From: Candidatus Pacearchaeota archaeon
GTDB lineage: Archaea > Nanobdellota > Nanobdellia > Pacearchaeales > GW2011-AR1
Length of the DNA: 64,000 nt
Assembly (NCBI GenBank): GCA_038874355.1
Contig: JAVZCO010000001.1
Location: 498,159 to 562,158 of the forward strand
Direction of reading: 5' to 3'
Positions 3,699 through 41,958 of the stretch are shown here, in pieces. The notes beneath the pieces are model-generated. The model was not told the DNA's origin. It worked only from the letters and a program-made list of their open reading frames with translations, and ran no database searches. The translations under genes were made by a program, and so were the position numbers. How positions within the stretch are numbered: position 1 is the stretch's first letter; the number at the start of each line of letters is the position of its first letter.

Positions 3699-3710
3699 TT
3701 ATTTTTTAAG

Positions 3711-3784: not shown

Positions 3785-3874
3785 ATTTCATAATTAATTA
3801 AATAAGAAGAATTTAAAAATCTATCAGAATATTAAAATTAATAAATATATTATAATTAATAGTATTTTTAATTT

Positions 3875-4240: not shown

Positions 4241-4596
4241 TTTTCTAAATTTTTTGTTCCTATATGAAAAAATCCTTCATAAATTAAACCAAGATATTCT
4301 TTATCATCCAAAAATTCATTGAAATATTCATTATAAATAGGATTTTCCTCAATTAAACTCATTTTATTTTTATTTTTTATAATATTAGAATTTAATCTAT
4401 TCCTTCTTAAATAATTTTTATCTAATAAACTGTAGTCTATATTTTCGTGTAATTTTAATTCTGTTATCTCTTCTATATTACCAAAATAATTTTTTTGATT
4501 TGAGATTAATTTAGAATTAATCTGTTTTAAAGATAACCCTTCTCTTTCAAGGATTTTTTCCCATTTCTGAAAAATTTTCAGTTTTTCTTCTTCCAT
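4237..4596 (-). CDS. Hypothetical cytoplasmic protein
   Basis: About 119 residues starting at MEEEKLKIFQ. The frame extends nine codons further upstream (to 4623), but the internal ATG at 4596 is about 30 bases from a TATA box at 4625-4634, as expected for a leaderless message. The protein is charged, with no membrane segment and no motif I can name. It forms a two-gene unit with the downstream unknown gene (4-base overlap). Function unknown. Confidence 0.6.
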   Translation of the reverse strand: MEEEKLKIFQKWEKILEREGLSLKQINSKLISNQKNYFGNIEEITELKLHENIDYSLLDKNYLRRNRLNSNIIKNKNKMSLIEENPIYNEYFNEFLDDKEYLGLIYEGFFHIGTKNLEK

Positions 4597-4624
4597 TTTA
4601 AAAAAATTAAAACGATAAAACAAG

Positions 4625-4634
4625 TTTATAAATA
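4625..4634. promoter_or_regulatory. TATA box probably shared by divergent genes
   Basis: TTTATAAATA on the plus strand sits 20 bases before the rhomboid ATG at 4654. Read on the minus strand, the same site (TATTTATAAAC) lies about 30 bases before the ATG at 4596. The near-symmetrical box could drive both divergent genes. Inferred from spacing only. Confidence 0.45.
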
Positions 4635-4653
4635 TTATTGTTTTTAAATAAAC

Positions 4654-5271
4654 ATGAAATTTATATCTTTATGGTTAAGTTTAGTGTGTATAGTTTTTTT
4701 TATTTTTCAATTCGTTTTTCCTAATTTTACAAATGCCTTTATTTTAAATCAACAAAGTTTTATTCAACCATATAGATTTGTTATTTCTATTTTTTTACAT
4801 GGAAATTTTGAACATTTAATTTTTAATTTATTTGCATTAATTATGTTTGGATTGATTCTTGAAAGTCTAATTGGAAGTAAAAAATTTCTTTTTGTTTTTT
4901 TTGTTTCTGGGATTTTAACAAATTTAATTACAGTAAATTTTTATAACTCTTCTCTCGGAGCATCTGGAGCAATTTATGGAATATTAGGAACTTTAACTAT
5001 AATTCGCCCATTAATGACGATATGGGTTTTTTCTTTACCTATGCCAATGTTTTTTGCTGCAATAATTTGGATTATTTTGAGTATTATTGGAATTTTTAAT
5101 CCTATAGATAATATAGGACATATTGCTCATTTATCTGGAATATTATTTGGATTTATTTTTGGTTTAGTATTTAGATTAAAAAATAATAACAAAAGAAATA
5201 AAATAAAAATAGAAAAAATAAATATTCCAGAAGAAGAAATAAGATTATGGGAAGATTATTATTTTAAATAA
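4654..5271 (+). CDS. Rhomboid-family intramembrane serine protease
   Basis: A 205-residue membrane protein with about six transmembrane helices. It carries the rhomboid features in order: an HGNFEHLIFNLFAL segment (about 50-63), the serine motif GASGAIYG with S104 as nucleophile, and the last-helix motif GHIAHLSG with H156/H159 supplying the catalytic histidine. Rhomboids cleave membrane proteins inside or near the bilayer. The C-terminal 35 residues form a charged cytoplasmic tail (KNNNKRNKIKIEK). It starts 20 bases after a TATA box, so it is likely leaderless. Substrates are unknown; the window encodes several single-pass surface proteins. Confidence 0.93.
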   Translation: MKFISLWLSLVCIVFFIFQFVFPNFTNAFILNQQSFIQPYRFVISIFLHGNFEHLIFNLFALIMFGLILESLIGSKKFLFVFFVSGILTNLITVNFYNSSLGASGAIYGILGTLTIIRPLMTIWVFSLPMPMFFAAIIWIILSIIGIFNPIDNIGHIAHLSGILFGFIFGLVFRLKNNNKRNKIKIEKINIPEEEIRLWEDYYFK

Positions 5272-5340
5272 ATATTTAAAAGATTAAAATATATTTTAAA
5301 TTTTAATAATTTTTAAAAAATCTTTTTTCCATTTTTAAAA

Positions 5341-5778
5341 ATGATTTATGATTATAAAAACTTAGAATTTTTCTTTTATGATAATGTAGAAAAAAACTTT
5401 AGAAATTTTAGTTTTTATGAAAAAGATTTAACTTTTTATATAACTAATATGCTTATTAAATTTGTTAAAGAAGAAAAAATTAGTAATTTAAGAAATTTTA
5501 AAATAGAAAATCTTATTCTTGCAGAAATGGAAAATATAAATTCTTATAATATTATTAGAAATTGTGCAGATTCTATATTATTTAGTCTCGGATTTTTTTC
5601 AGAATATTTTAAAAAAAGAAAATCAATAAGCTTTTATTCTTTTTTAGGAAAAAGATTGTATTACGTTTCTTCTTTACATGAATCTCCATATCAAAAAAGT
5701 TTATATTTAATCCATAAAAATTTTGAAGACTGTGTCTTAGGATTAAATATAATTAGAAAAGAATTGAATTTTAAGTGA
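5341..5778 (+). CDS. Hypothetical protein
   Basis: 145 residues, rich in aromatic and asparagine residues, with no clear membrane helix and no motif I recognise. Base composition matches the AT-rich core genome. It is the last gene before the less AT-rich restriction-modification island, so its end marks the approximate left limit of that island. A TATA-like stretch lies near 5311. Function unknown. Confidence 0.6.
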   Translation: MIYDYKNLEFFFYDNVEKNFRNFSFYEKDLTFYITNMLIKFVKEEKISNLRNFKIENLILAEMENINSYNIIRNCADSILFSLGFFSEYFKKRKSISFYSFLGKRLYYVSSLHESPYQKSLYLIHKNFEDCVLGLNIIRKELNFK

Positions 5779-5899
5779 GAAAAAAGATAATAACTAAAAT
5801 AATCTTAAGTAAACAAAATAAATTAAAACATTTAGAATTGTTAAAAGTTAGCGAGTCACATTAATATTCTTTCTATATTCAAGCAAAAATAAAATATTA

Positions 5900-5932
5900 T
5901 AAATCTTGCGAGCCCGAAGGGCGAGCTTGTGG
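5900..5932. other. GC-rich hairpin-like stretch at left edge of defence island
   Basis: In the 212-base gap between 5779 and 5990, a locally G/C-rich run contains GCCC-GAA-GGGC, a perfect 4-bp stem, flanked by imperfectly related GCGAG and GCGAGC. It stands out from the surrounding AT-rich sequence and resembles other short GC hairpins at 10.1 kb and 38.8 kb. No gene is seen in this gap before the RHH start. Confidence 0.4.
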
Positions 5933-5945
5933 GGGGAAAACAGTA

Positions 5946-5975
5946 ATATTTATATACAAATGTACATATTTATAT
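5946..5975 (+). promoter_or_regulatory. Promoter with duplicated ATATTTATAT box (possible operator)
   Basis: The 10-base element ATATTTATAT occurs twice, at 5946-5955 and 5966-5975, exactly 20 bases (two helical turns) apart. The upstream copy is suitably placed as the TATA box. The downstream copy would overlap the transcription start, where a bound RHH dimer could block initiation. The first gene downstream encodes such a regulator, so autoregulation is a reasonable inference. Confidence 0.45.
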
Positions 5976-5990
5976 TAGTTAGGGGTTGAA

Positions 5991-6134
5991 ATGAAATCAA
6001 AAAATATTACATTGAGAGTTAATTCCGATTTGTATGATAAGTATAAAGAGTTTTGCAAAAAGAAGGGTTTATTAATATCTCGTCAAGTTGAGATTATGAT
6101 GGAAGAGCAGCTTAAAGAGGAGACAAGAAAATGA
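5991..6134 (+). CDS. Ribbon-helix-helix (Arc/CopG-like) regulator
   Basis: A 47-residue protein with the RHH pattern: a short beta strand (NITLRVNSDLYDKYKEF), a helix, a turn (KKKGLLIS) and a second helix (RQVEIMMEEQLKEE). Such proteins bind operator DNA as dimers through the paired strands. The stop codon overlaps the start of the methylase-nuclease gene (ATGA), so it is the first gene of the restriction-modification operon and probably controls its expression. An AGGGG stretch upstream can act as ribosome binding site. Confidence 0.8.
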   Translation: MKSKNITLRVNSDLYDKYKEFCKKKGLLISRQVEIMMEEQLKEETRK

Positions 6135-7915
6135 ATAAAGACAATCATGATTCTATTTTTCAAAGAAACATACAGCGAGGAATAGACAAAGGGATTATAA
6201 AAGTAGAAAGCGATGGCTCAAAAATAACTTATTTCTGTAAAAAAGATTATTCTACTTCTTTTAAAAATCCAGAAGAAAAAGTAAGGGCTTCTTATTTTTG
6301 TGAGCTTGTTTTAGATTATGATTATCCTGCTAAAAATATAGATATTGAAGTTACTGTTCCAAGAAGAACACCTGAGGATAGGGCAGATATTGTCGTTTAT
6401 GATGAAGAAGGGGCAGAATATCTTGTTATTGAATGTAAAAAAGATGGAATTACAGACGCAGAATTTAAGCAAGCAATTGAGCAAGCGTTTGGAAATGCAA
6501 ACAGTTTAAGGGCAAAGTTTGCTTCGGTTGTTGCAGGTATTACAAAAACCGCTTTTGATGTTGCAGGTTTTAAGCCAAGTGAAAGAGAGAAAAATGTTAT
6601 TTCAGATATTCCAAAGAAATATGGAAAAACGCCAAAATACAAATTCATAAAAGGAGAAAAAGGCAAAGAATTAAAAGAAGTTTCCAGAGAGGAACTAATC
6701 AGAGCATTAGAGAAATCTCATGATACTGTTTGGCAAGGCGGGAAATTAGCGCCTACAACAGCTTTTGACGAAGTTTCTAAACTCCTTTTTTGTAAACTAA
6801 AGGATGAAAAAACAACAAAGAAAGGAGAAGCATATAGTTTTCAAATTGGAACGCATGAATCAGCGGAAGAAATTTTTAATAAGATAAATGCAATTTATCA
6901 AAAAGCCAAAAAAGAAGACGCAGAAGTTTTTAAAGAAGATATAAGATTAGAGCCGAAAGTCGTTTATAATGTTGTTGAGCATTTACAGGAATTAGCCATA
7001 AATAAGATTGATTTAGACACCAAAGGCGTGGCTTTTGAGAGGTTTATGGAAGATTTCTTTAAAGGAAAAATGGGGCAATTCTTTACACCGAGAGAAATAA
7101 TAAATTTCTGTGTTGAGATGATGAATCCAACAAGAGAAGATTTAATAATAGACCCTGCTTGCGGCTCAGGTGGTTTCTTGCTTAATGCTCTTGATAAAAT
7201 ACGGAAATTTGCAGAAACAAACTATGATGAGAAAGAAGCATGGGAACATTGGCATAAGTTTGCCATGAATAATCTTTATGGAATTGAGATAAACGACCAA
7301 ATAGCCCGTGTTTGCAAGATGAACATGATAATTCATGACGATGGACACACAAATATTATATCAACAGATTCGTTAAGAAACATTGATGAAATCACAAAAA
7401 TACACAAAGGGTTTAAGAAAAACCAGTTTGATATTTTGCTTACTAATCCCCCGTTTGGAGCTGTTGTAAAATCCAGCGAAAAAGATTATCTAGACAAATA
7501 CGAGTTAGGCAAAGGAAAGAAAAACCAAAAAACAGAAATATTATTTATAGAAAGATGTCTTGATTTCTTAAAACCAAATGGAAAAATGGCAATAGTGTTG
7601 CCTGACGGAATTTTAACAAATTCATCATTACAATATGTTAGAGATTTCTTAATGGAAAAATCACAAATATTAGCAGTTGTTTCACTTCCTCAGTTTGCAT
7701 TTACTCATTTCGGAGCAGGAGTAAAATCCTCTCTTGTATTTGTGAGAAAGAAAAAAGAAAATGAAAAATTAGGAAATTATCCTATCTTCATGGCAATAGC
7801 TGAACATATTGGTTATGACGCAACAGGCAGAAAAGACCCAATTAATGATTTAGATAAAATCTTAGAAGAATACAGAAAGTTTGAGAAAAATCCAAAAGGG
7901 TATAAAGGAGGATAG
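6131..7915 (+). CDS. Nuclease-methyltransferase fusion: HSDR_N-like domain + N6-adenine DNA methylase
   Basis: A 594-residue cytoplasmic protein. Residues about 45-190 resemble the N-terminal nuclease domain of type I HsdR proteins (PD-(D/E)XK fold), with D86 in RADIVVYD and E101-x-K103 in VIECKK. Residues about 200-300 resemble the HsdM N-terminal helical region, and about 300-560 form an N6-adenine methylase with SAM motif DPACGSGGF (from D341) and catalytic NPPFG (from N439). Methylation and cleavage may therefore reside in one chain that uses the S subunit encoded downstream, as in BcgI-like type IIG/IIB systems. No HsdR translocase gene is present nearby. Codon use is less AT-biased than in neighbouring genes, suggesting transfer. 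Confidence 0.88.
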   Translation: MNKDNHDSIFQRNIQRGIDKGIIKVESDGSKITYFCKKDYSTSFKNPEEKVRASYFCELVLDYDYPAKNIDIEVTVPRRTPEDRADIVVYDEEGAEYLVIECKKDGITDAEFKQAIEQAFGNANSLRAKFASVVAGITKTAFDVAGFKPSEREKNVISDIPKKYGKTPKYKFIKGEKGKELKEVSREELIRALEKSHDTVWQGGKLAPTTAFDEVSKLLFCKLKDEKTTKKGEAYSFQIGTHESAEEIFNKINAIYQKAKKEDAEVFKEDIRLEPKVVYNVVEHLQELAINKIDLDTKGVAFERFMEDFFKGKMGQFFTPREIINFCVEMMNPTREDLIIDPACGSGGFLLNALDKIRKFAETNYDEKEAWEHWHKFAMNNLYGIEINDQIARVCKMNMIIHDDGHTNIISTDSLRNIDEITKIHKGFKKNQFDILLTNPPFGAVVKSSEKDYLDKYELGKGKKNQKTEILFIERCLDFLKPNGKMAIVLPDGILTNSSLQYVRDFLMEKSQILAVVSLPQFAFTHFGAGVKSSLVFVRKKKENEKLGNYPIFMAIAEHIGYDATGRKDPINDLDKILEEYRKFEKNPKGYKGG

Positions 7916-29116: not shown

Positions 29117-31354
29117 TTATTTCTTAAAATTTTCTGCTAATTTTTTTAGTTTTCTTTCTCTTGAAATATTTCTTATTGCTGAAATTATACTTGCTGATTC
29201 TTTTGTTATTATAATAGACTTTTCAATTTTTTTCATTTTTTCTATTCCATAAAGAGTTTTTATTGTCTCTAAAAATGCTTTCTTAAAACTTCTTGTCCTT
29301 CTTGATGAAGAAAAATGAATATTTATTATTAAAGGATAATCGAATTGAATTTCCATGAAACCTTCTTTATAAAATAAGAATCTATAACTATTTTGTGTTT
29401 CTTCAACTAAAATTATTTTTTCTTTAAAATGATTTTCTAATAAAGAAATAAATTTTTCAATTTCTTTTTTGTTTATTAAAATTTGCTTTTTATTTTTATC
29501 CTCACTTACAAAAGGAAGCTGCATATTTGTATCTATATAAGCAAGACAAATATGTCTTAAGCGCAAAATGAAAAATGGCAAAAATAAACTTATTATCCAT
29601 AACCATAAGAAATGTAAACTTGTGGCTATAACAGCAACAGTTGTTGTATAAGCTGCTGTGTCTACAACAACATCCGGAATATCTCCGTGAGGTATAAAAT
29701 CAGAAGGCTTAGATAATGTTATATTAGTGCCTTTTCCTTTAAATTTTATTTTTTTTGTTTCTGGTTTTTCTTCTTCTATTATTTCTTTTGTAATAAGAGA
29801 ACAAATTCCTGTTGTATAATTACATTCTTCATTATCACTACATGTGTCTGTTTTTATGTAATAACAACCGTCATCTTTTAATTTACATAATAAAGAAGTT
29901 TTACTATCTTTACATTGAGGATAATTATCAGGCAAGCATTCATTTATACAAGTTATGTTTTTTATACAACTTCCTTCTTCACAAATATAATTATAACTAC
30001 ATGATTCATAACTATAACTACTCCACTCTAAACAGGAATCAGAATCATAATTTCCACATGTTCTTATTTTTATTGTTGTTGAATTCACGCAAGATTTTTC
30101 TTCTTGGCCAGATGAACATTCATCACTACAGCTTTCACCACCCCCGCCACTACCACCACCTCCACTAGAAGAAGCAACACAAATTCCTTCACTACATATA
30201 TAACCACTATTACAACTAATTAATCTATAGTTATATATTGTTCTATTATCAGCACAGCCATAAATATCAGATTGATTTATTTCTTGTGATTGATTTTTTG
30301 TTGTTGAATTAACACAACTATAATCTTGCCATTCACCTATAGATACATTAATATATTCAGGTCCTACTAATTGATATTCATATTCAGTCACATTTTCAGC
30401 ACAACCATATGAATCATATTTTATTCTGCTTCTTGATTGGTTCATGTCATTACCAGCACAACCTACATTCTGCCAATCAGTCCAATCAGTATAAGTCCAA
30501 TTAGGTCCTACAAAGGTATAATTATAAACAGTTTCATTTGCCTTACATCCATATAAATCATATTGAGTTGCACTTTGCTTTAATCTCATTTGATTTCCTA
30601 TACAGGTATCTTCTTGCCACTCTCCAAATGTTGTATTTTGCAATATAGGTCCATCTAATCTATAATCATATATAGTTTCATTTTCATAACAGCCTGTATC
30701 ATTAGCATCATATTGAGTTAAGTAACGAGATTGATTCATTTGTTCATTAACACAAGTTAAATTTTGCCATTCACTCCAAGATGTATTAACTAAGCTTATG
30801 TATAATATTCTGTATTCTGTCCAAGTTGTGTTAGTTTCATTGCAGCCATTTGCGTCATATTGAGTTATATTACGTGATTGATTCCTTCCCTCGCTTAAAC
30901 AATTCAAATTCTGCCATTCTGTTGTTATATTTTGCCAGTTTGATGTGCATTCTGTATTATTTAAGCAACCTGAATTATTTATTCCTATATATTCGTTTCC
31001 ACTTGTACAAATATACCAATCATTCATATTACAATTTTTTATTGTTACATTTGTTCCTTGAATAATCAAACCTGTTGTTTCATCATAAATATTTCCATTA
31101 AAACTATAACCTTGACAATCAAGAGTACAATCAGAACACATTATTGTTAAGCCATCTCCTGCTAAACATGTAACATCTGCAGAAAATATAGAAGATTCAC
31201 TCATTGTAAAACCACAAGTATTTCCAGGATTTGAATAAACAGCAAATCCTGTTAGTTTTTTTTCTTGAAGAAAAAACATGCTTGCTGAGAGAACAATAAA
31301 TAATGAAACAACTATAATGATAGCACTACTAACAGCAATTGCTTTTTTTTGCAT
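29117..31354 (-). CDS. Repeat-rich surface protein with membrane anchor and cytoplasmic domain
   Basis: About 745 residues from ATG 31354; upstream ATG at 31399 is rejected because a TATA box (about 31376-31384) fits leaderless initiation at 31354. The N-terminus is a signal anchor ending LTGFAVY, common in DPANN surface proteins. Then come about six ~50-residue repeats with pattern W-x-x-W-Q...C...Q-S-R...Y-D...G-C...N-x-T-x-Y, rich in N-glycosylation sites, a GGGGSGGGG linker, cysteine-rich modules, a membrane helix (about 590-620), and a ~130-residue cytoplasmic domain shared with the next gene. The repeats recall thrombospondin type 1 modules. Confidence 0.82.
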   Translation of the reverse strand: MQKKAIAVSSAIIIVVSLFIVLSASMFFLQEKKLTGFAVYSNPGNTCGFTMSESSIFSADVTCLAGDGLTIMCSDCTLDCQGYSFNGNIYDETTGLIIQGTNVTIKNCNMNDWYICTSGNEYIGINNSGCLNNTECTSNWQNITTEWQNLNCLSEGRNQSRNITQYDANGCNETNTTWTEYRILYISLVNTSWSEWQNLTCVNEQMNQSRYLTQYDANDTGCYENETIYDYRLDGPILQNTTFGEWQEDTCIGNQMRLKQSATQYDLYGCKANETVYNYTFVGPNWTYTDWTDWQNVGCAGNDMNQSRSRIKYDSYGCAENVTEYEYQLVGPEYINVSIGEWQDYSCVNSTTKNQSQEINQSDIYGCADNRTIYNYRLISCNSGYICSEGICVASSSGGGGSGGGGESCSDECSSGQEEKSCVNSTTIKIRTCGNYDSDSCLEWSSYSYESCSYNYICEEGSCIKNITCINECLPDNYPQCKDSKTSLLCKLKDDGCYYIKTDTCSDNEECNYTTGICSLITKEIIEEEKPETKKIKFKGKGTNITLSKPSDFIPHGDIPDVVVDTAAYTTTVAVIATSLHFLWLWIISLFLPFFILRLRHICLAYIDTNMQLPFVSEDKNKKQILINKKEIEKFISLLENHFKEKIILVEETQNSYRFLFYKEGFMEIQFDYPLIINIHFSSSRRTRSFKKAFLETIKTLYGIEKMKKIEKSIIITKESASIISAIRNISRERKLKKLAENFKK

Positions 31355-31383
31355 TAATAAAAAAGAAAAATAAAGTTTATAAA
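31345..31383 (-). promoter_or_regulatory. Promoter/start region, near-copy at 38991-39029
   Basis: The 39-base stretch covering the start codon and TATA box of the surface-protein gene recurs at 38991-39029 with two mismatches, again placed over an ATG and TATA box. Identity is concentrated at GCATTAATAAAAAAGAAAAA and GTTTATAAA. Confidence 0.7.
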
Positions 31384-31417
31384 GATTATTTACAAGCAAG
31401 CTAAAGGCAGGTGAGAA

Positions 31418-32233
31418 TTATTTTTTATATAAATTATCTGCATATTCAAAAACTATGTCAGCTTCTGTTGGACCAGGACCAGGTAAAGTTAATTTTCCTT
31501 CTTTATCAGGAATTCCTTTAACACTTCCGTCTACATAAAGTATATTTACATATTCTCCTTTATGATTGAAGTAGTTATATGCTCCTCTAACATTATAATC
31601 CATAACTAAAGCTGGTTTTTCTCTTCTTTCTGAAGAATCAACTTTGTAAGATGTTAAGCCGCCAGATAAACCTCTATAGAAGTATGTAGAATCTGTATTC
31701 TGGTTTGCTTCCCAATTTGCTTTTACTTTTTCTTTTGTAGTCCAATTGTTTGATGGGCAAACCATTAAATCTGTTGTATTAATGTATTGGGGAATTAAAT
31801 CTCCTAAACAAATTTTTCTGCTAGAGGTTCTTATTCTATTATTAGCATAACCTAAAGGACCTGTATAAGGATACATCTGATCATTATCAGCAGCATACAT
31901 CTCGCAGGCTAAACCAATTTGCTTGAGATTATTCATGCATGTTGCTCTTCTTGCGCTTTCTCTTGCCCTGCTTAATGCTGGCATAAGCATTGCAGCTAAT
32001 GTTGCAATTATTCCAACTACAACCAAAAGCTCAATTAAGGTAAAACCTGCTTTTTTCCCTACTCTAATAACATCTTCTTTTTTTGTTATTCCTTGTTTAA
32101 ATAATCTTTTAGCAAAAGAATGCAAATTAGAATCATTATTATTTGTTTTTTCTTCTAACCCATTTCCTGTCGGTGAAGGCATAGCATCTGCTCCTAACAA
32201 ATAATCATCTGCATAGCTATTATAATTTGTCAT
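31418..32233 (-). CDS. Bacterial-type type IV prepilin-like protein (H-x9-DG family)
   Basis: 271 residues. A class III prepilin site, [14 protein letters not shown], lies at residues 61-70 (cleavage after G63, E68 at +5), with the hydrophobic helix following. The rest ([35 protein letters not shown]) matches the pseudopilin-like proteins abundant in Planctomycetes, Lentisphaerae and Omnitrophota. The 63-residue leader before the site is far longer than usual. Codon use is less AT-rich than neighbours. It looks like a bacterial import; no pilus assembly genes are nearby. Its promoter is a near-exact copy of the one at 42.6 kb. Confidence 0.85.
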
Positions 32234-32440: not shown

Positions 32441-32611
32441 ATGAAAGAAAACTGCATTTTGCGCAAGATTGTCAAAGGAGAACTTCCTTGCTATAAAATT
32501 TGGGAAGATGAAAAACATTTAGCTTTTTTTAAAATCTTTCACAATTCTAGGGCCACCACTACAAACAGAATTAAGATAACAACAAGATTTGCACTCTCCA
32601 AATACTCCTGA
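32441..32611 (+). pseudogene. Truncated HIT-family gene (5' fragment)
   Basis: The first 28 codons read as the start of a histidine-triad hydrolase: ILRKIVKGELPCYKIW followed by EDEKHLAFF, matching the usual CIFCKIVKGE...WEDE...AF opening. Homology stops near 32524, where the sequence runs into the 3' end of the convergent radical SAM gene; the frame then continues with unrelated residues to a stop at 32611. The HIT motif itself is missing and the second cysteine of CxxC is lost. This is a scar at the left edge of the island. Confidence 0.75.
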
Positions 32612-33493
32612 GTTATTGCGACATTCATAATTCTTTAACGCATTGTAAGCTTCTAAGAAGGTCCCATACTTCTTTAAATCGTCAATTTTATATATTCTTA
32701 AAGGGAGGCATCTCCAAATAGTTAAATCAGGGGATATATCAAAAAATGGGGGGCAAATAAAAGAAACATCATTCTCTTGTTTTGCAAAGATTTCTAATTG
32801 AGATTCACTGAATGCACAATGAGGGACGCATATATCGCCCCAAGTTTCAATGCCTCTTTTATTTGCTTCTTGTACGATTTCATAAATTCTTTTTCCATAC
32901 TTTCGTAAAGTATTCTGGCTCTTATATCCAAAAAGATTGCCAGAGCTAACTATAGGTTCTGAAAATGACCATCTAAGTTCGAAATGATATTTTTCAGCTA
33001 TATCTAAATGTTCAATACCACTAAAGTTATCAGAATCTATTATTGCACCAATTGAAACAACACCTCCTTTTTGTCTAAGTTGTTCAAAAGTCTCAATGAG
33101 TTCTTTTTTTTGATTAGAGCTATAATGATGCCATCCTAAAAAAGTTATTTCTGTTTCTATAGGGTATTCTATTCTTTCAAATTCTTTTCTAAATTTTCTA
33201 TTCCAAAGCCCGTTTGTACTCAAGCCTATTGAAGTGCCACAATTATAAAATCTTCTTCCAATTTCTAGTGCATGGGGGTGAAGAGTCGGCTCTCCTCCAA
33301 GAAGATTGATTTGTTTTGGAGGTTCTTTTCTTATTCTTTTTTCTAATTCTAAAATCATATCCTCTTGTATAAACATTGGTTTCCGGCATTCAGACATATA
33401 ATCTCTTGCGATGCACCATTTACAATCCAAGTTACAAAAGGATGTTAGGAACAGATTTACAGTTAGATCTTGTAGACTATAACCTTTTATCAT
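32519..33493 (-). CDS. Radical SAM protein with C-terminal SPASM-like cysteines
   Basis: 324 residues. The radical SAM cluster motif is CNLDCKWC (C20, C24, C27), followed by NLLGGEPTLH, which fits the SAM-binding 'GGEP' motif, and a TNG-type strand (IGLSTNGLW). The C-terminal region has multiple cysteines (FICPPF, WRCLPL, YECRNN, GECKSCCYLNSVCSGG) as in SPASM auxiliary Fe-S cluster enzymes, which modify peptides or assist such reactions. It lies 50 bases downstream of the methyltransferase gene on the same strand and ends inside the HIT fragment. Substrate unknown. Confidence 0.88.
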   Translation of the reverse strand: MIKGYSLQDLTVNLFLTSFCNLDCKWCIARDYMSECRKPMFIQEDMILELEKRIRKEPPKQINLLGGEPTLHPHALEIGRRFYNCGTSIGLSTNGLWNRKFRKEFERIEYPIETEITFLGWHHYSSNQKKELIETFEQLRQKGGVVSIGAIIDSDNFSGIEHLDIAEKYHFELRWSFSEPIVSSGNLFGYKSQNTLRKYGKRIYEIVQEANKRGIETWGDICVPHCAFSESQLEIFAKQENDVSFICPPFFDISPDLTIWRCLPLRIYKIDDLKKYGTFLEAYNALKNYECRNNSGVFGECKSCCYLNSVCSGGPRIVKDFKKS

Positions 33494-33543
33494 GTTATTA
33501 CTAAATAGTAAAGATTTATAAATTTTATGCTAATATGCATACT

Positions 33544-34122
33544 TTAACAATCATTTAACGCAATTATTTTAACTAGAGAATGAACCATATGTTCGTCTTT
33601 TTCTTTAAATTTAAGGTATTTAATTATCTTCCAATCAGAATATATCTCTTTTAGTTGGTTATTTCTAAAATATAATCTTTTTTTATTAAAAGTCGGGTCT
33701 TGTTCAGTAAATGAAATAATTATATTAACTCCTTGTTTTTTTGTCATTTTTTTCATTCTTTTTATAAGTTCTATCCCTTTTTGATAATTTAGGAAGTGAA
33801 ATGTTCCTGTAGAGATTATTATGTCGTATTTTTTTGTTATCTTGAAAAACTCCAAATCGGCGACTTTCGTGTTTATTTTTATTTTTTCCTTTTTTGCTCT
33901 TTCCTTTATTTTTTTTATTGCTGTTCTTGATATATCCACACAAGTAACACAGAATCCTTTTTTTGCAAGATAAAGGGCATTTCCGCCTTCGCCGCAACCT
34001 AAATCCAAAACACTTCCAGATTTTTTCAACTTTAAAATATCTTTTACCAATCCCGAATCTTCTTCGAATTTAAAATTCTTTCTTTTGTATATCTTATCAA
34101 AATAAAATTTATTTGAATGCAT
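33544..34122 (-). CDS. Class I SAM-dependent methyltransferase (TehB/UbiE-like)
   Basis: 192 residues with SAM motif I SVLDLGCGEGGNALYLA, the acidic loop VTCVDIS, and post-motif DIIISTGTFHFL. The fold is complete for a small-molecule methyltransferase. Its first 14 bases overlap the end of the kinase-like gene, so it is translated in the polyamine operon. The substrate cannot be read; a polyamine or peptide amine would suit the context (inference). A truncated relative lies at 38875-39000. Confidence 0.88.
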   Translation of the reverse strand: MHSNKFYFDKIYKRKNFKFEEDSGLVKDILKLKKSGSVLDLGCGEGGNALYLAKKGFCVTCVDISRTAIKKIKERAKKEKIKINTKVADLEFFKITKKYDIIISTGTFHFLNYQKGIELIKRMKKMTKKQGVNIIISFTEQDPTFNKKRLYFRNNQLKEIYSDWKIIKYLKFKEKDEHMVHSLVKIIALNDC

Positions 34123-35209
34123 TTTTCATTATCTCCTTATTTTTTTGAAATTCTTCTATCTCGGAAAGAATTTGATGTTTATTTAATTTAACATCTTTAT
34201 ATTTAAGATATCCTATATTGAATCCTTCAATTAAACTCTGAGCAGAAAAATCAAAAATACAATTCTCAAAATATGCTAAAGATGAATAAACCCCTGTTAT
34301 AAAAAGATTTAAATCATTCTTCTGAAATCTTAAGAAAGATTCTTCATTTCCTTTAAATGAATCTTTTGAATACATAGAATCTAAATCTGTAATTCCTATT
34401 TCTCCATTAGGCATAATAATTTCATTCCCGTACCAAGAATTTCCTATACCTCTTATAAACCCCTTATTATGTAATTTTCTATAGATAAATCCTATCTTTT
34501 TTCCTAAGTTATATAATAGCTTTAATTTTTCATGATGGTCTTTAAGAATTCTTGTAACTTTAATATTTTTAATTAAAAAATAATTTTTTTTCTTGTTAAA
34601 CTGAACTGAGTCTTTTAATTTTGCAAGAATATTTATTATAACTGCCATGCAAAATTCATCTACTCTTAAATCGCTATTAACAAGGTATATTAAAGAACAA
34701 TAAGTTTCTGATGTTCTAAATGGCAATAATACCCTTCTTATTCCAATCGGAATATAAGGACTAACAAATCCTTCTTTGATAATTAAATGGTAATTCTTTA
34801 TTTCCCTCTTAGCATCATTATAATCTAAAGTACCTCTGTGCTCATAAATATTACTTTCTATAATAATCTTCTTTTTAAATAAAATCTCTCTATCGATTAT
34901 GCAATTCTTAATAAAACCTTTGTACTTCGTACCATTCCTTTTAAATTTGTATGTTTCTCCTTCGATTTTTACTAATGCTCCGCCAGTACCACAACTTAAA
35001 CCCAGATACTCTCCTTTTGAATCTTTTATTAAAAAGGGAATATTTTTTAATTTAGGATTATACTCCTCCAATATTTCTGAAGGATAAATTTTTAGTCTAA
35101 TTGGTTTTCTAAATGTAAGAGATAATCTTTTTGTGAACTCATCGTTATTGTTCCAACCACTATGAAATCCAAAAAAACCTTCAGGATATGAAAAATCAAA
35201 CTTTGTCAT
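34109..35209 (-). CDS. Unknown protein with kinase-fold-like features
   Basis: 366 residues. The segment around 255-290, LHNKGFIRGIGNSWYGN followed by NGEIGITDLDS, resembles the catalytic loop and DFG-like strand of aminoglycoside phosphotransferase/protein-kinase-fold proteins, but the usual HGD aspartate is replaced (RGIG). An N-terminal GTGGALVKIEGETYKF could correspond to the nucleotide-binding lobe. Overlaps by 4 bases with speD-like upstream and 14 bases with the methyltransferase downstream, so it is firmly in the operon. Phosphorylation or a lost kinase activity are both possible; the family call is tentative. Confidence 0.55.
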   Translation of the reverse strand: MTKFDFSYPEGFFGFHSGWNNNDEFTKRLSLTFRKPIRLKIYPSEILEEYNPKLKNIPFLIKDSKGEYLGLSCGTGGALVKIEGETYKFKRNGTKYKGFIKNCIIDREILFKKKIIIESNIYEHRGTLDYNDAKREIKNYHLIIKEGFVSPYIPIGIRRVLLPFRTSETYCSLIYLVNSDLRVDEFCMAVIINILAKLKDSVQFNKKKNYFLIKNIKVTRILKDHHEKLKLLYNLGKKIGFIYRKLHNKGFIRGIGNSWYGNEIIMPNGEIGITDLDSMYSKDSFKGNEESFLRFQKNDLNLFITGVYSSLAYFENCIFDFSAQSLIEGFNIGYLKYKDVKLNKHQILSEIEEFQKNKEIMKNAFK

Positions 35210-35553
35210 TTTAATCTAATTGAATATTTTTTAATTTTTAAGCTCTTGCAATCAAAGTTTTTCTTAAGATATTTTATTAATTCTTTTAATTTATGCGGTT
35301 TTGTACATATAGAAGCTTCTATTATGACAATATTATACTCAGGATAAGAGCTATATATAATATGACTTGTAGACAAAAAATAGCAGATATTTATTCCTTG
35401 ATGATTATAATATTTATATGTTCTTCTTATAATTTTAGAATCAAGTAAACTAGAAATAGTATCAAGAATACTGTAAACCTTTTTTCTGTCATCTAAGATA
35501 TCTTTTGTTTTTGTCTTTAAAATAAAAATAAAATTATGTATTTTATTTATCAT
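35206..35553 (-). CDS. speD: SpeD-family pyruvoyl decarboxylase with variant active site
   Basis: 115 residues, the normal size of the bacterial/archaeal S-adenosylmethionine decarboxylase proenzyme. The self-cleavage serine is S63 in STSHIIYSSYPE, where the canonical form is ESHxSxHTYPE; the preceding Glu and the following His are changed. C83 (SIC) fits the catalytic cysteine. Canonical SpeD makes the aminopropyl donor for spermidine; family members with altered sites have been reported to decarboxylate ornithine or arginine. It lies eight bases after the speE-like gene and next to bpsA-like, so a polyamine role is well supported while the exact substrate is open. Confidence 0.8.
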   Translation of the reverse strand: MINKIHNFIFILKTKTKDILDDRKKVYSILDTISSLLDSKIIRRTYKYYNHQGINICYFLSTSHIIYSSYPEYNIVIIEASICTKPHKLKELIKYLKKNFDCKSLKIKKYSIRLK

Positions 35554-35561
35554 TTTGTGTT

Positions 35562-36467
35562 TTATAATTTGGAAAAAAGATATTTATCTCTTTCATGAAT
35601 AACACCCCAGTTTTTATTTAAATTCTCTAAAATATCATTTGAAAATGAACGAAAAATTGAATAAAAAAGCATAGAATTAAGCCATTTTAGATTTATTTTT
35701 AGAGTCTTTATTTTAATTTCTATATCTTTTTCAGAGAATTTGAGGGGGTCTACAATATCAGAAGCTATTAATCTCCCCCAAAAGTCTACATAATGAGGTA
35801 TCCAGATCCTATAAGGTCTAACAATTTTGAATACAGACTTGTAAGTTTGAATTATTCTATAATAAACTTCTCCCGCAGAGTCAGGAGACTCGCAATGAGT
35901 AACAATGGCTGACTTTTCTTTCATAATTCTCTTTAGATTAAGAATAAACTCCTTTGAAAAAATCTTTAGAGCAAAATTTTTAGGGTCAGAAATATCTAAG
36001 ACGATGAGATCATATTTATTATGAGTGTCTTTTACATAGTCAAAACCATCATTAAAATAAAGACGAACTCTTTTATCGTTAAAATATTTTTTAACTTCTG
36101 GGAAGTATTTCCTACAAATATTTACTACATCTTTATCGATTTCTACAAGATCTATTCTTTGAATATAAGGATATTTTATTAATTCCCCTAAAGAAAAACC
36201 ATCCCCTCCGCCAATAACTAACACTTCTTTTATTTTTTCCATAGATAAAACAACAGGGTGTATAAGACTTTCATGAACATAACTATTAAATTTTTCACAA
36301 ATTTGTATCTCATTATCAAGAGTAAGAATCTTTCCAAAAAGGTTAGACTTATATATTTCTATCTTTTGAAATCTAGAGAATTTATGAAAAATTCTTTTAA
36401 CCCTAATTAAATGTTTTATATTTTGAGAATTCCAATTCTTAAACCAGATTAATTTATTTTTTCTCAT
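35562..36467 (-). CDS. speE: Spermidine synthase-like aminopropyltransferase
   Basis: About 301 residues from MRKNKLIWFK (ATG 36467); an ATG 20 codons upstream would overlap the previous gene more deeply and lacks family similarity. Motifs: VLVIGGGDGF (substrate nucleotide loop), LVEIDKDVV, and LIVLDISDP with the catalytic aspartates. These enzymes transfer aminopropyl from decarboxylated SAM to putrescine or similar amines. The C-terminal third (after about 215) is longer than in E. coli SpeE and diverged. It overlaps the bpsA-like gene by 14 bases. Confidence 0.87.
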   Translation of the reverse strand: MRKNKLIWFKNWNSQNIKHLIRVKRIFHKFSRFQKIEIYKSNLFGKILTLDNEIQICEKFNSYVHESLIHPVVLSMEKIKEVLVIGGGDGFSLGELIKYPYIQRIDLVEIDKDVVNICRKYFPEVKKYFNDKRVRLYFNDGFDYVKDTHNKYDLIVLDISDPKNFALKIFSKEFILNLKRIMKEKSAIVTHCESPDSAGEVYYRIIQTYKSVFKIVRPYRIWIPHYVDFWGRLIASDIVDPLKFSEKDIEIKIKTLKINLKWLNSMLFYSIFRSFSNDILENLNKNWGVIHERDKYLFSKL

Positions 36468-37467
36468 AATATTGGTAAAAGTACATTTTCCCCCATTTCT
36501 TTTCTTTTGATCTATCATAAAAATCATTTTTTGGGTATTTAAAATTTTTTGTTATTTTTAATTCAATTATTGTTTCAGGCGATAATGAAACTCCTGGAAG
36601 AAATTCAGAAAAACCAAAACGCTTTAAAAAACTAATAAGTTTTAATTTTGATACATCTTGTTGAAATAAATTTAATAACTCTTTGATAAATCTTTTAATT
36701 AATATTTCCGGGCAATCGTAAGTAACTGCTTTCTTTTCTATTTTATTTATTTTTAATCCGTGCGATTTAATAAAATTAAATAATTTTTTTCTTTCTTTAT
36801 ATGTGAATATAGGAATATCGTCAACTAATTGAATAACGAATTGGCCGCCGAAACCATTTTTTGATAAACAGTTTATTACTCTTGTTAAAAAAGAAATATA
36901 CCCACCAAGACAATGTGAAGAATCAAAAAAGAAATAATCATAAGACTTTAAAAATTTTTTAGGTAAAGGTTCTCTCACATCATAATGAAAGGTGTTAATC
37001 TTATATCTCTTTTTTTTAGAAACCTTCTCAATGTAATTTATAATTCTTGTATCTATCTCTAAAACATCTATTTTTAATTTATTGAAATTTGCAGCTAAAA
37101 AAATACTTAATAGATCATCATCTCCTAAGATTAAGATTTTTTTAATAGAAAATTTGTTTAATGAATCCTTAAAAAGGTCTAGTTTTTTAAACATCGTTCG
37201 TTTGTCTGTATATAGCTGAGAATACTTCAATGTAGGGGAATTAATTTTTCTAAACCTCTCAATTTCTTTTGGGAAAAACCATTTTTTTGAACTAAACTTG
37301 CTTTGAATATCGCAATTATTTAAATAATTTGCAATTTTACAAGGATTTTTTTGATATAGAATCCATAAGTCCATCAGTATGTCCTCAACTTTTGATTCAG
37401 ATCTCATAAAATCCATAAAAGAATATCTTCTTTTGATACTCTCTTCTATTTCTTTTATTCTGTTCAT
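36454..37467 (-). CDS. bpsA: BpsA-like branched-chain polyamine synthase
   Basis: 337 residues: an N-terminal helical part (about 1-90) and a Rossmann-like domain with the BpsA hallmark GDDD (G115-D118, in ILILGDDDLLSIF), then VLEIDTRI and DYFFFDSSHCLGG. BpsA of Thermococcus adds two aminopropyl groups to spermidine to make N4-bis(aminopropyl)spermidine, a branched polyamine typical of thermophiles. It is first in the minus-strand operon with speE-like, speD-like, kinase-like and methyltransferase genes. Whether the product is a free polyamine or a modified conjugate is unknown. Confidence 0.8.
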   Translation of the reverse strand: MNRIKEIEESIKRRYSFMDFMRSESKVEDILMDLWILYQKNPCKIANYLNNCDIQSKFSSKKWFFPKEIERFRKINSPTLKYSQLYTDKRTMFKKLDLFKDSLNKFSIKKILILGDDDLLSIFLAANFNKLKIDVLEIDTRIINYIEKVSKKKRYKINTFHYDVREPLPKKFLKSYDYFFFDSSHCLGGYISFLTRVINCLSKNGFGGQFVIQLVDDIPIFTYKERKKLFNFIKSHGLKINKIEKKAVTYDCPEILIKRFIKELLNLFQQDVSKLKLISFLKRFGFSEFLPGVSLSPETIIELKITKNFKYPKNDFYDRSKEKKWGKMYFYQYYEKK

Positions 37468-37596
37468 ACTCTCTTTAAAAATCAGTTAATATTTAAATTT
37501 TGTTTTATCAAAATAAAAAATTTAGGAAAATAAAGAATTTAGCATTTAATCTTAAATGCTTTGGAGAAAAGTGTTTTTGTGCTATGCCCAATACAT

Positions 37597-38016
37597 TCAA
37601 AAATTAAATAAAGTTTTAAGTTCGGTTGGGTTTGAAACTATTTTTTTTATTTGTTCTAAGTAGTCATCATTCAATCTGTTGAACAAAATATAAGGTTTAT
37701 TTATAAGATGATTATTTGGTAGATCTATACTACTTGCCGAATCCCAAAGTCCGACTTTCGTAACTTTTCCCTCTAAATTCAACTGTTCCCAAATTCTTTG
37801 AGCTGCATTTGGTAAATAAGGCTGTGTTAAAATAGCTAGAGTTTTACATAAATTAGCACATAAATATAAAGTACAGTTTGTTCTTTTATTATCTTTTTTT
37901 ACAGTATTCCATGGTTCGCTATCATTAAAATATTTATTTCCATAAGATACAAGAGAAAGGATCTTAAAAAACATCGATTTTGCAAGCGATATGGTAAAAA
38001 TAGGCTTAATAGACAC
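37597..38016 (-). pseudogene. metG: Fragment of methionyl-tRNA synthetase (anticodon-binding domain)
   Basis: A 139-residue frame matching the MetRS C-terminal helical domain: VSYGNKYFNDSEPW and LAILTQPYLPNAAQRIW are diagnostic. The whole catalytic half with HIGH and KMSKS is absent; upstream the sequence changes into a plus-strand radical SAM remnant. It cannot charge tRNA. This is most simply debris from insertion or recombination inside the island. A complete metG must exist elsewhere. Confidence 0.85.
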
Positions 38017-39234: not shown

Positions 39235-40524
39235 ATGATAGAAAAACTACATTATTATAGTATACCCCATTTAATTCATATTGAAACAACTTATGGATGC
39301 AATCAGGGATGTATTTTTTGTTATAATCCTAATAGAAATTACTCTATTGATTATAAAAAATTAGACAAAATTATAGATAGTGTTTATAAATCAAAAATAC
39401 CCCATGTTTATCTTATTGGAGGGGAACCTTCACTTTTAAGTGTTAAAAAATTAAATGAATATATAGATAAACTTTCAAAATATTCTTCAGTTACAATTGT
39501 AACTAATGGTTTTAAGTATATGAAAGGTCTCTCAAAAAATCTCGCTTGCTTAGGCATCCCAATTCATGGAGATAAAAAAACCCATGAATATTTAACTAAT
39601 AATCCTAAAAGTTATAATAAAATAATTAGTAATATAAAAAAATATATTGAAGAAGGTTTTGATGTAAGAATTATCCCTGTTTTGACATCTATTAATTATA
39701 ATCAGATGTATAATATAATTAAACTCTCTACTAAATTAGGAGCGGAAAGTGTTTTTGTAGATAGATTTGAGCCAGGAGGAATTGGTAGCAAATTAACAAA
39801 AAAACTTTTACCTTCAACCAAACAGTTTAAAATTGCTTTAGATCAAATGATAAAAGCAAAAAAAGATTTCGGAATTCCTCTTGGTTTTGGTACAGCAATT
39901 CCTTATTGTTTAGACAAAAGATTAATTGATGAAAATATTTATGCAAATTGCGGAGCAGGGATAACTTTTGGAGCTATAAATCCAAATGGCGATTTTAGAA
40001 TTTGTAATCAATCTTTAAAGGTTTATGGAAATGTTTTAAAAGAACCATTAGAAAAAATTTGGAATAAAAAAGAATTAGACGAATTTAGAAATTTAAGTTG
40101 GGTTAATGAGCCTTGTAAAAGTTGTAATTTACTCTACGAATGTTTAGGAGGTTGTAAGGTTGATTCTAATTTCCCTGGAGAATTTTGTATTGATTATTCT
40201 GTAAGATGTTGTAAAGAACCTCTTAATAAAATTAAAATTAAAACAAAAAAACTAATATTTAAAGTACCAACAAACATGAGAAGATTTAAGAAAAATAGAT
40301 ATTTAAAATTAAATGATTTTCATAAAGAAATTTATATTGTTACAAGGTATCAAACAGTAGAGATTGATGAATCTACTAAAAGAATAGTAAAGTTTATTTT
40401 AAAGAATGAAGATTATATTTTAGAGAAAGAAATTTTAGATAAATTTTCAAATGATTTTGAAAAAAAAGATTTAAGAGAGCTACTTTCAAAATTTATATAT
40501 ATCGGAGCAATAGATGAAATATAA
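39235..40524 (+). CDS. Radical SAM/SPASM peptide maturase with C-terminal PqqD-like RRE
   Basis: 429 residues. Radical SAM motif CNQGCIFC (C22, C26, C29), LIGGEPSLL, and a TNG strand. The SPASM-type auxiliary cluster region has YANCGAG, FRICNQ, EPCKSCNLLYECLGGC and FCIDYSVRCC. Residues about 340-429 look like a PqqD/RiPP recognition element: a strand pair, then VEIDESTKRIVKFIL, a helix-turn-helix and LLSKFIYIGAI. This architecture is typical of enzymes that crosslink or epimerise ribosomal peptides. It overlaps the next radical SAM gene by 11 bases. Confidence 0.9.
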   Translation: MIEKLHYYSIPHLIHIETTYGCNQGCIFCYNPNRNYSIDYKKLDKIIDSVYKSKIPHVYLIGGEPSLLSVKKLNEYIDKLSKYSSVTIVTNGFKYMKGLSKNLACLGIPIHGDKKTHEYLTNNPKSYNKIISNIKKYIEEGFDVRIIPVLTSINYNQMYNIIKLSTKLGAESVFVDRFEPGGIGSKLTKKLLPSTKQFKIALDQMIKAKKDFGIPLGFGTAIPYCLDKRLIDENIYANCGAGITFGAINPNGDFRICNQSLKVYGNVLKEPLEKIWNKKELDEFRNLSWVNEPCKSCNLLYECLGGCKVDSNFPGEFCIDYSVRCCKEPLNKIKIKTKKLIFKVPTNMRRFKKNRYLKLNDFHKEIYIVTRYQTVEIDESTKRIVKFILKNEDYILEKEILDKFSNDFEKKDLRELLSKFIYIGAIDEI

Positions 40525-41413
40525 AAATTTTATTCAAAGATGTGATTGGGAAATAACAACAAAGTGTAATCTTAATTGTAAACATTGTTTAATTAATTAT
40601 AAGCCGAAAAAAGAACTTTCTACTAAAGAGTGTTTTTTAGTGATAGATCTATTAAAAAAATTGGGGTGCAAGCAGATAAATTTTACTGGTGGCGAAGCTC
40701 TTATCAAAAAAAATTTTTTAAAAATTTTAAAGTACTCTTATGAAAGAGGGATAGTAAATAACCTTTTTACAAATGGAACACAGATTAATAGTAAAAATAT
40801 TATTTTTCTTAAAAAATACATTAATTATATTGGAGTAAGTATTGAAGGAATGAAAGAAGAAAATGATTTTATTAGGGGAAAAAACTCTTACAACAAAGTA
40901 AAAAGAACATTAGTATTATTAAATAAAGAAAAAATTCCTTTTGGAATTTATATGACTTTAAATAAAAAGAACATATTAAATCTCAAAAAAATTCTTAAAA
41001 AAATTGTTAAATATAATCCTAAAAATATTAGTTTAAACGAACTCGTTTTTAGGGGAAAAGCTAAAAAAAATAAAAAAAAAGTATATGTAAAAATAAATAA
41101 TAAAGAAATCTTAAGAATTTTAAAAGAAATTTTTCCTGACGAAAGATTTAGAATTGAGAGGGGTTGTAATATTAATCCAAAAAATATTTTTCTAACCTCT
41201 GAAGGAAAGTTTTATTTCTGTACGGAAATAAGGCAATGTAAAAAAACAAAATTTTTAGGAAGTTTTTTTCCTCCCAATTTTCATAAATTCAAAAAATTCT
41301 CAAATAATTTTTCTAAAAAGAATTTGCCAAAAAATTGCCCTTATTTCTCTTATATTTCAAAAAATATAAAATTAAATCTTTTAACAGGTAAAAAATGCCC
41401 ATTTATAAAATAA
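40514..41413 (+). CDS. Second radical SAM enzyme of the peptide cluster
   Basis: 299 residues with CNLNCKHC (C18, C22, C25), NFTGGEALI, LFTNGTQ and a VSIEG strand, the usual order for MoaA/PqqE-like radical SAM proteins. C-terminal cysteines (RGCNIN, YFCTEI, NCPYFS, KKCPFIK) suggest at least one extra Fe-S site, in a pattern different from the first enzyme. It is very lysine-rich. It overlaps both neighbours, so the four genes form a tight operon. Confidence 0.88.
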   Translation: MKYKNFIQRCDWEITTKCNLNCKHCLINYKPKKELSTKECFLVIDLLKKLGCKQINFTGGEALIKKNFLKILKYSYERGIVNNLFTNGTQINSKNIIFLKKYINYIGVSIEGMKEENDFIRGKNSYNKVKRTLVLLNKEKIPFGIYMTLNKKNILNLKKILKKIVKYNPKNISLNELVFRGKAKKNKKKVYVKINNKEILRILKEIFPDERFRIERGCNINPKNIFLTSEGKFYFCTEIRQCKKTKFLGSFFPPNFHKFKKFSNNFSKKNLPKNCPYFSYISKNIKLNLLTGKKCPFIK

Positions 41414-41958
41414 ATATAAAAAATATTTTTCCAGGAATTTCGAAAGTTTGTAAAAATTGTAATATTTGTTGTAGAACTTATGGTTGGCTTTTAGAAGAGG
41501 AGGCAAAGAAATTTTATAAAAGAGGGTATCCAATAATAAATTTAAATAATTCTATTTTTTGTATAGATTCATTTAAACGGGATAAAAAAGGAAATTTAAT
41601 TTTGAATAAAATTCCTCGTTGCCGATTTTATAAAAAAAAGAAGTGTTTAATTAATAAAAACAAACCTCTTGATTGTAAACTTTTTCCTATTAAAGTCAGA
41701 TTCAATGAAGATGATTGTTTTTTAGGTTTAAGTCTTGGTTGTAAATATATATCTAATCTAAGTGAGAAAGAAAAAAATAAACTCTATAAGAGAGTAAAAA
41801 ATTTTATAGAACATATGCCAAAAAAAGATTTAGATAAATATCTTAATTTAATGTATAATGTTAACTTAATATCCCAACCTAAAAAGTTTTGGATGAAAAA
41901 ATTAATAACTTTTAAAAAAGAAGGAAATTCTTGGAAATTAATATCTTTTCATGACTAA
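41395..41958 (+). CDS. YkgJ-family zinc/iron-chelating cysteine-cluster protein
   Basis: 187 residues. The cluster CKNCNICCR (C19, C22, C25, C26), then RCRFY, KKCLI and LDCKLFPI matches the YkgJ (CxxCxxCC) family, which is thought to bind Fe-S or zinc. Such proteins occur beside radical SAM enzymes in several peptide pathways. It is the last gene of the operon and ends 21 bases inside the convergent Bud23-like gene. Exact role unknown. Confidence 0.82.
   Translation: MPIYKINIKNIFPGISKVCKNCNICCRTYGWLLEEEAKKFYKRGYPIINLNNSIFCIDSFKRDKKGNLILNKIPRCRFYKKKKCLINKNKPLDCKLFPIKVRFNEDDCFLGLSLGCKYISNLSEKEKNKLYKRVKNFIEHMPKKDLDKYLNLMYNVNLISQPKKFWMKKLITFKKEGNSWKLISFHD

Follow-up and report, generated by a model that had tools for sequence, protein, structure and literature searches.

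A polyamine gene cluster of a DPANN archaeon with a radical SAM, kinase-fold, and methyltransferase trio: a candidate polyamine-tailoring locus

Overview

A run of six genes was characterized on the minus strand (37467 to 32519) of a 64,000-nucleotide stretch (the window; positions 498,159 to 562,158 of contig JAVZCO010000001.1) of a Candidatus Pacearchaeota archaeon, a DPANN archaeon with a 593-kb, four-contig, 95.8% complete assembly of 25% G+C. The run contained bpsA-like, speE-like, and speD-like polyamine genes, followed by genes for a kinase-fold protein, a methyltransferase, and a radical S-adenosylmethionine (SAM) protein (together, the trio). The locus is real, unusual, and functionally coherent, and it represents a variant kind of polyamine gene cluster, set apart by a tailoring trio that is new to description; in the literature searched, no polyamine cluster with radical SAM, kinase, and methyltransferase genes was described. 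The run was read as a polyamine-tailoring locus whose product would be a modified polyamine or polyamine conjugate, with confidence held at about one half because only two complete loci were found and the product is predicted. A functional link between the trio and the polyamine genes is likely, because the trio adjoined polyamine genes in both complete loci though those genes and their order differed.

The trio as the conserved unit of related loci

Relatives of the kinase-fold protein were searched for in 92 close relatives, in the genomes of the phylum (371), taxonomic family (181), and class (378), and in one scan of 84,980 species; for the amine pathway of the window genome, the search covered the families SpeD, SpeE, BpsA, and deoxyhypusine synthase (DHS). 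The kinase-like family was rare (3/181 genomes of the taxonomic family, 3/371 of the phylum, and three relatives in the 84,980-species scan), and outside the window it was recovered from only three genomes: (i) that of locus L006, a second Nanoarchaeota contig, from another genus, whose copies in G434 and G501 had the same contig number and coordinates; (ii) G363, with locus L003 (equal to L005); and (iii) G124, with a distant homologue at L007 (equal to L004).

L006 displayed six genes in one direction, neighbours being either no more than 2 bases apart or overlapping by 4 to 8 bases: speD, speE, a second speD gene of SpeDC type, and then the trio (Table 1). The L006 run had no bpsA. Its SpeD passed the NCBIfam cut-off (88.6 vs 75.65 bits), and its SpeE passed both cut-offs, TIGR00417 (266.9) and PRK00811 (309.8 vs 260). 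According to PMC10407285, Gln, Thr, Phe, and Tyr in the central region are diagnostic of SpeD-derived L-ornithine decarboxylase, and the second SpeD of L006 carried these residues (QLIETSLISGHF...Y), matched to that description rather than to logo columns. Because SpeD and SpeE passed their cut-offs and the second SpeD had the ornithine decarboxylase-type residues, L006 encodes, besides the trio, a route that leads from ornithine by way of putrescine to spermidine.

L003 contained the C-terminus of the radical SAM gene, the kinase-like gene, and the methyltransferase gene on a truncated contig, the end of which seemed to be a chimeric join to a ThiF-type gene. At about 2190-2612 of L003, a radical SAM gene and a ThiF-type gene, divergent and each missing its 5' end, met at one point, as an assembly chimera or a deletion would produce.

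Between the window and L006, the trio was better conserved than the polyamine genes: identity was 46% for the radical SAM protein, 47% for the methyltransferase, and 38% for the kinase-like protein, against 30-31% for SpeE and 23% for SpeD. The kinase and methyltransferase of the trio were under purifying selection, with ratios of nonsynonymous to synonymous substitution rates between L006 and L003 of 0.12 and 0.14, respectively. All three kinase family members of the window, L006, and L003 had radical SAM and methyltransferase genes beside them, and both kinase loci with readable flanks adjoined SpeD and SpeE, with different gene orders and polyamine genes. On this sequence evidence it is the trio that is conserved as a unit, and not bpsA–speE–speD. 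The first-pass annotation, made from the letters alone, had looked to a six-gene order recurring elsewhere; this order was rejected as the conserved unit, L006 having no bpsA and a different order. It had also set against its own proposal the case of homologous loci with only bpsA–speE–speD conserved and the rest varying at random, and the opposite was found: the trio was constant, and the polyamine genes varied in L006. SpeD was present in 49 of the 180 genomes of the taxonomic family, and, the neighbourhoods of most SpeD genes of that family having been inspected, the trio stood beside SpeD nowhere outside the window genome and G434.

Polyamine enzymes of the window

The BpsA of the window scored 87.7 bits against Pfam BpsA_C (cut-off 27) and aligned to BpsA of Thermococcus kodakarensis (5xnc, E 6e-14), keeping IDxR and the GDDD motif (LGDDDLLS in the 5xnc alignment; Asp159/Asp160 of Tk-BpsA). 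The roles of GDDD and of the acidic C-terminal carrier cluster (Glu339-Glu345) of Tk-BpsA are given in PMC12979288; the window protein had no such cluster, its C-terminus (...DFYDRSKEKKWGKMYFYQYYEKK) being basic. The cluster was also missing from the aligned BpsA of locus L050, so it may not be universal among BpsA proteins. L050 (G464, 1461-3572) was a second DPANN bpsA locus, with overlapping SpeD, BpsA (187 bits), and methyltransferase genes and no kinase or radical SAM gene. A BpsA-like match in G476 had DPPW and no GDDD, and it was read as a DNA-methyltransferase-like protein and rejected as BpsA.

The SpeE of the window had 149.9 bits to Spermine_synth (Pfam) and lay under both NCBIfam speE cut-offs (TIGR00417, 187.8/249.55; PRK00811, 233.6/260). 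It kept the cofactor motif GGGDG and LDISD (catalytic DxxD), but the acceptor-side motif YHE was VHE, a change that among 14 aligned sequences was common only to a Halobaculum SpeE; the remaining sequences kept the tyrosine, mostly as YHE. The closest SpeE was that from a Halobaculum rubrum plasmid (42% identical, 279 bits; next match 160 to 180), and the two paired in the tree with support of 99/98. A sister relation of the window and L006 SpeE was rejected by the approximately unbiased (AU) test (p=0.009). Since this sisterhood was rejected and the window SpeE grouped with Halobaculum, the SpeE genes to which the trio is coupled in the two genera belong to different lineages. On the same Halobaculum plasmid (L115, NZ_CP082285.1, 8104-9882), SpeD, a YkgJ-type CxxCxxCC protein, and SpeE were encoded in one overlapping run. 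VHE may be the signature of a subgroup of archaeal SpeE proteins that use a different acceptor.

The SpeD-like protein, the sole one found in the window genome (one PF02675 match), had 49.0 bits to AdoMet_dc (Pfam) and lay under the NCBIfam TIGR03330 cut-off (39.9/75.65 bits). In alignments with Thermotoga maritima SpeD (1tlu/2iii) and family members, of the residues that serve self-processing and catalysis in class 1b SpeD, the equivalents of Ser63 and Cys83 were kept and that of His68 was Ser; His68 of T. maritima SpeD is reported as essential for self-processing (PMC10407285). In other SpeD-type proteins of the family (L071, L074, and L084), ESGASIYTW or DSGISVYIW stood where the self-processing motif with His68 would be; these proteins formed a further SpeD variant group. 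The first-pass annotation was correct that plain polyamine synthesis needs no enzymes such as the trio; the polyamine enzymes of the window were themselves altered at key residues. The polyamine half of the window operon might either use other acceptors, or receive decarboxylated S-adenosylmethionine (AdoMet) from elsewhere, or be decaying; the VHE common to the window and Halobaculum SpeE favours changed specificity of SpeE.

Proteins of the trio

The kinase-like protein of 366 amino acids (aa) had no match in Pfam, NCBIfam, or PHROG, and no relatives of it were found in viral contigs and phages. Its kinase fold, suspected from the sequence in the first-pass annotation, was borne out by a modest AlphaFold2 model built on a four-sequence alignment (predicted local distance difference test, pLDDT, 67; predicted template modelling score, pTM, 0.72). 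SelO/YdiU and PKR ranked first in Foldseek, and VIA-align gave (i) PRPK/Bud32 at Z 14.2 (187 residues, 3.2 Å, along residues 41-338) and (ii) SelO at Z 13.4 (243 residues, 4.6 Å, along residues 1-337); many ordinary protein kinases followed at lower Z in the PDB and viral fold lists, and a fold closer than SelO and Bud32 is possible. Among the invariant residues of the family were the Gly-rich loop GLSxGxG (70-76), K88/K90, E136, N262, and D275, so that positions for binding nucleotide and metal were kept; the catalytic loop read RGxxxSWxGNE, and the HRD/HGD catalytic aspartate was missing, with RGI/RGY at that position. SelO likewise has no HRD/HGD aspartate. SelO membership by sequence was rejected: no sequence-profile relation was found by hhalign against six SelO sequences (probability 0.1%), a comparison of low sensitivity with only four query sequences. 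Because the catalytic aspartate was missing, the modelled protein was read as an ATP-binding, atypical kinase fold and not a normal kinase, and the phosphate addition raised earlier is not implied.

The methyltransferase scored 113.2 bits against Pfam TehB, had TehB relatives in the PDB (3m70, E 8e-28), and had orthologues in L006 and L003. The radical SAM protein (Radical_SAM, 49.4 bits vs cut-off 29.5) carried C20-x3-C24-x2-C27 (CX3CX2C) and the SPASM-like C-terminal cysteines C247-x14-C262 and C301-x2-C304-x6-C311, with Pro at the last SPASM Cys; it ended 14 residues before its L006 counterpart. In two other DPANN loci, L016 (598-2448) and L017 (1504-3420), a radical SAM domain related to that of the trio (about 110 bits) was fused to a glycosyltransferase-9-like domain. 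Two further readings were tried and rejected: (i) a viral or phage origin, the kinase having no relatives there and the radical SAM profile matching viral-contig proteins only weakly (26-31% over part of the protein); and (ii) anti-phage defence, PADLOC giving only generic matches to the viperin N-terminus and the mads_2 methyltransferase domain.

Proposed function and alternatives

Under the tailoring reading, SpeD and SpeE, with BpsA in the window or the ornithine-decarboxylase-type SpeD in L006, would supply an aminopropylated amine: spermidine in L006 and, in the window, an amine that might be branched or of some other uncommon kind. The trio would then modify this amine: the radical SAM/SPASM-like enzyme might act on the amine, or on a conjugate of it, by carbon-centred chemistry; the kinase-fold protein might spend ATP on a non-canonical activation, as SelO or SidJ do, either by nucleotidylation or by priming for conjugation, and not on classical phosphorylation; and the methyltransferase might methylate the amine or conjugate. 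Gene content, linkage, and selection were read from the loci; the order of steps, substrate, and product are those we infer. The first-pass annotation had suggested a decorated polyamine or a polyamine-peptide conjugate. That the trio recurred with polyamine genes in L006 and was better conserved than those genes points to an additional step in which a polyamine is modified or takes part; the peptide conjugate found no positive evidence.

Several observations weighed on the other side. Only two loci were complete. In G363 (89% complete), the trio was present and SpeE was not detected, the contig being 3 kb. A clade of the window, Halobaculum, and L006 SpeE was not rejected (p 0.32). Local spermidine synthesis in the window genome looks doubtful, because SpeD had no His68 and SpeE had no YHE tyrosine. 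The TATA-like TTTATAAA in the 50-base gap may be a promoter of the radical SAM gene itself in this genome, and hence this gene may also be transcribed alone. The distant kinase-like homologue L007 (SKHI01000023.1, 437-2784) had no polyamine genes beside it; it shared a 19-base overlap with a KamA-family (lysine 2,3-aminomutase-like) gene, which, at this one locus only, would fit a kinase-like family handling amines.

It is possible, if rather unlikely, that the target of the trio is a macromolecule, be it a protein, a tRNA, or a lipid, and that the co-substrate is a polyamine or the aminopropyl group that decarboxylated AdoMet carries. The making of hypusine, of agmatidine, and of the aminopropyl group in microcin C would be the model for this. 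The kinase model resembled SelO and Bud32/PRPK, which act on proteins or in tRNA modification; macromolecule modifiers occur among class I methyltransferases; DHS-type genes were found in 5/5 genomes examined, so that amine transfer to macromolecules is available; and beta-lysine, with the KamA-like neighbour of L007 in mind, is another protein-attached amine (on elongation factor P, EF-P). However, the cluster had no conserved target gene, the DHS-type gene was placed elsewhere in each genome, and no tRNA or translation factor gene was linked except a broken fragment of methionyl-tRNA synthetase (MetRS).

An incidental association, in which horizontal transfer has gathered both gene sets as cargo in islands of a streamlined genome and the function of the trio is unrelated, was judged unlikely. 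A truncated gene and the MetRS fragment flanked the operon as at an insertion site (see below), the G+C of the radical SAM gene (0.328) exceeded that of its neighbours (0.20-0.27), and gene order varied between loci; but the kinase family was present in about 1% of genomes, both readable loci abutted SpeD and SpeE nearly without gaps and with different polyamine genes, and chance placement twice in genomes of about 700 genes would be very unlikely (<1 in 10,000 by our own estimate).

Decay of the window operon, with L006 as the live version, seemed quite unlikely. The altered His68 and YHE positions and the shortened radical SAM protein, which ended beside the truncated HIT-like gene, would fit a remnant; against this, all six ORFs were open and tightly spaced in a 25% G+C genome, GDDD of BpsA and the motifs of the radical SAM, kinase, and methyltransferase proteins were intact, and VHE occurred also in an intact haloarchaeal SpeE, which suggests a changed acceptor instead.

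At 39235-41958 (+), 2 kb from the six-gene run, lay an operon encoding a pair of radical SAM proteins and one CxxCxxCC protein, which the first-pass annotation had taken, as a nearby peptide-maturation operon, to strengthen its proposal. This operon recurred in G460 (L114, 8120-10833) with its first gene 70% identical and with the second radical SAM and CxxCxxCC proteins as one fused ORF; no polyamine gene or trio member was present within the 18 kb taken there, and downstream of the trio no precursor-peptide-like small ORF common to the loci was found, the L006 run having no space for one inside. The two-radical-SAM operon is a unit separate from the polyamine/trio operon, and a link between them was rejected because G460 had the former alone. 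A polyamine-bearing ribosomally synthesized and post-translationally modified peptide made jointly by the two operons, as the radical SAM/SPASM-like protein in the run and the two further radical SAM genes nearby might suggest, is thus very improbable, the more so as the operons lay on opposite strands.

Of the tailoring reading, a bolder form was thought a long shot: the kinase-fold protein would found a family of ATP-dependent amine-conjugating or nucleotidylating enzymes, build with its partners a new class of decorated polyamines in DPANN archaea, and act likewise with beta-lysine in the KamA-linked relative. The genomes of DPANN archaea are very small, and few biosynthetic pathways are believed to be retained in them. 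A six-gene run for an elaborated polyamine, if true, would tell of the needs of DPANN cells or of exchange with their hosts. The trio offers a defined gene set, cleanest in L006, for a modified polyamine absent from the literature searched, and the kinase-fold family, which was absent from the libraries searched and has no phosphotransfer aspartate, would catalyse a reaction that need not be phosphorylation.

Gene layout and surroundings

The six window genes were intact and in the order first described, as verified by ORFs and, for five of them, by Pfam. With speE taken from the ATG at 36467, a more likely start than that of the longest ORF (36527), successive genes from bpsA to the radical SAM gene overlapped by 14 bases, stood 8 bases apart, overlapped by 4 and again by 14 bases, and were finally separated by 50 bases; an unbroken series of overlaps of 4-14 bases, as first described, was interrupted by the 8-base gap between speE and speD. 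A TATA-like TTTAAATA upstream of bpsA is the probable promoter of the operon.

Table 1. Coordinates of the six-gene run in the window and of the L006 run
Locus	Feature	Position	Strand	Remarks
Window	TATA-like TTTAAATA	37490..37497	-	23-30 bases before bpsA ATG; read by eye
Window	bpsA-like	36454..37467	-	Aminopropyltransferase, 337 aa; Pfam BpsA_C
Window	speE-like	35562..36467	-	Aminopropyltransferase; Pfam Spermine_synth
Window	speD-like	35206..35553	-	AdoMet decarboxylase fold; Pfam AdoMet_dc
Window	Kinase-fold protein	34109..35209	-	366 aa; no Pfam, NCBIfam, or PHROG match
Window	Methyltransferase	33544..34122	-	TehB-like class I, SAM-dependent; Pfam TehB/Methyltransf_25
Window	TATA-like TTTATAAA	33515..33522	-	In 50-base gap, 22-29 bases before radical SAM ATG; read by eye
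Window	Radical SAM gene	32519..33493	-	Radical_SAM domain; SPASM-like C-terminal cysteines
L006	speD	2862-3212		JAHJRR010000060.1
L006	speE	3214-4116		JAHJRR010000060.1
L006	SpeDC-type second speD	4109-4483		JAHJRR010000060.1
L006	Radical SAM	4480-5496		JAHJRR010000060.1
L006	Kinase-like	5499-6587		JAHJRR010000060.1
L006	Methyltransferase	6580-7173		JAHJRR010000060.1

The 3' end of the operon cut a HIT-like gene at 32441-32527 (+), of which the N-terminal 29 residues were left, and a MetRS C-terminal (anticodon-binding) fragment lay upstream of the operon at 37597-38016 (-). Flanked by these two, as would be expected where insertion or recombination has taken place, the operon has the look of an inserted segment. 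Farther along the minus strand were a bacterial-type pseudopilin (31418-32233), which in this archaeal genome looks like a transfer from a bacterium of the PVC (Planctomycetes-Verrucomicrobia-Chlamydiae) type, and a large surface-type protein (29117-31399) with several repeated EWQ..C..NQS..I..D..GC units.

Comparison with known systems

The comparison was applied to five known systems. The branched-chain polyamine pathway of Thermococcus and Thermus (SpeE plus BpsA, PF01861) likewise has speE together with a GDDD-bearing bpsA-like gene, which the window held in one run, but the window BpsA was divergent and had no acidic carrier cluster, SpeD and SpeE were atypical, three further enzymes were present, and the second locus, L006, had no bpsA. 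The neofunctionalized SpeDC/SpeDA clusters of DPANN and candidate phyla radiation (CPR) genomes (PMC10407285) share with L006, which had an AdoMet decarboxylase plus an ornithine decarboxylase-type copy, the use of SpeD-derived decarboxylases; the partners named in the available part of that paper are speE, casdh/casdc, speY, speB, or hss, and a radical SAM, kinase-fold, or methyltransferase partner goes unmentioned there.

The trio proteins each differed from their nearest described families: (i) the SelO/YdiU protein adenylyltransferases and Bud32/PRPK had the kinase fold in common with the window protein, and SelO the loss of the HRD/HGD aspartate, whereas the window protein had no profile relation to SelO, a different catalytic loop, and a different operon context; (ii) radical SAM/SPASM proteins (MoaA, viperin, and PqqE-like) had the CX3CX2C core and SPASM-like C-terminal cysteines in common with the window protein, which lay far under every NCBIfam cut-off (best viperin, 43/180 bits, first 90 residues only) and had proline in place of the last SPASM cysteine; and (iii) the TehB methyltransferase family matched at 113-130 bits over most of the protein, whereas the NCBIfam TehB cut-off was missed (114.3/219.5) and the context was not one of tellurite.

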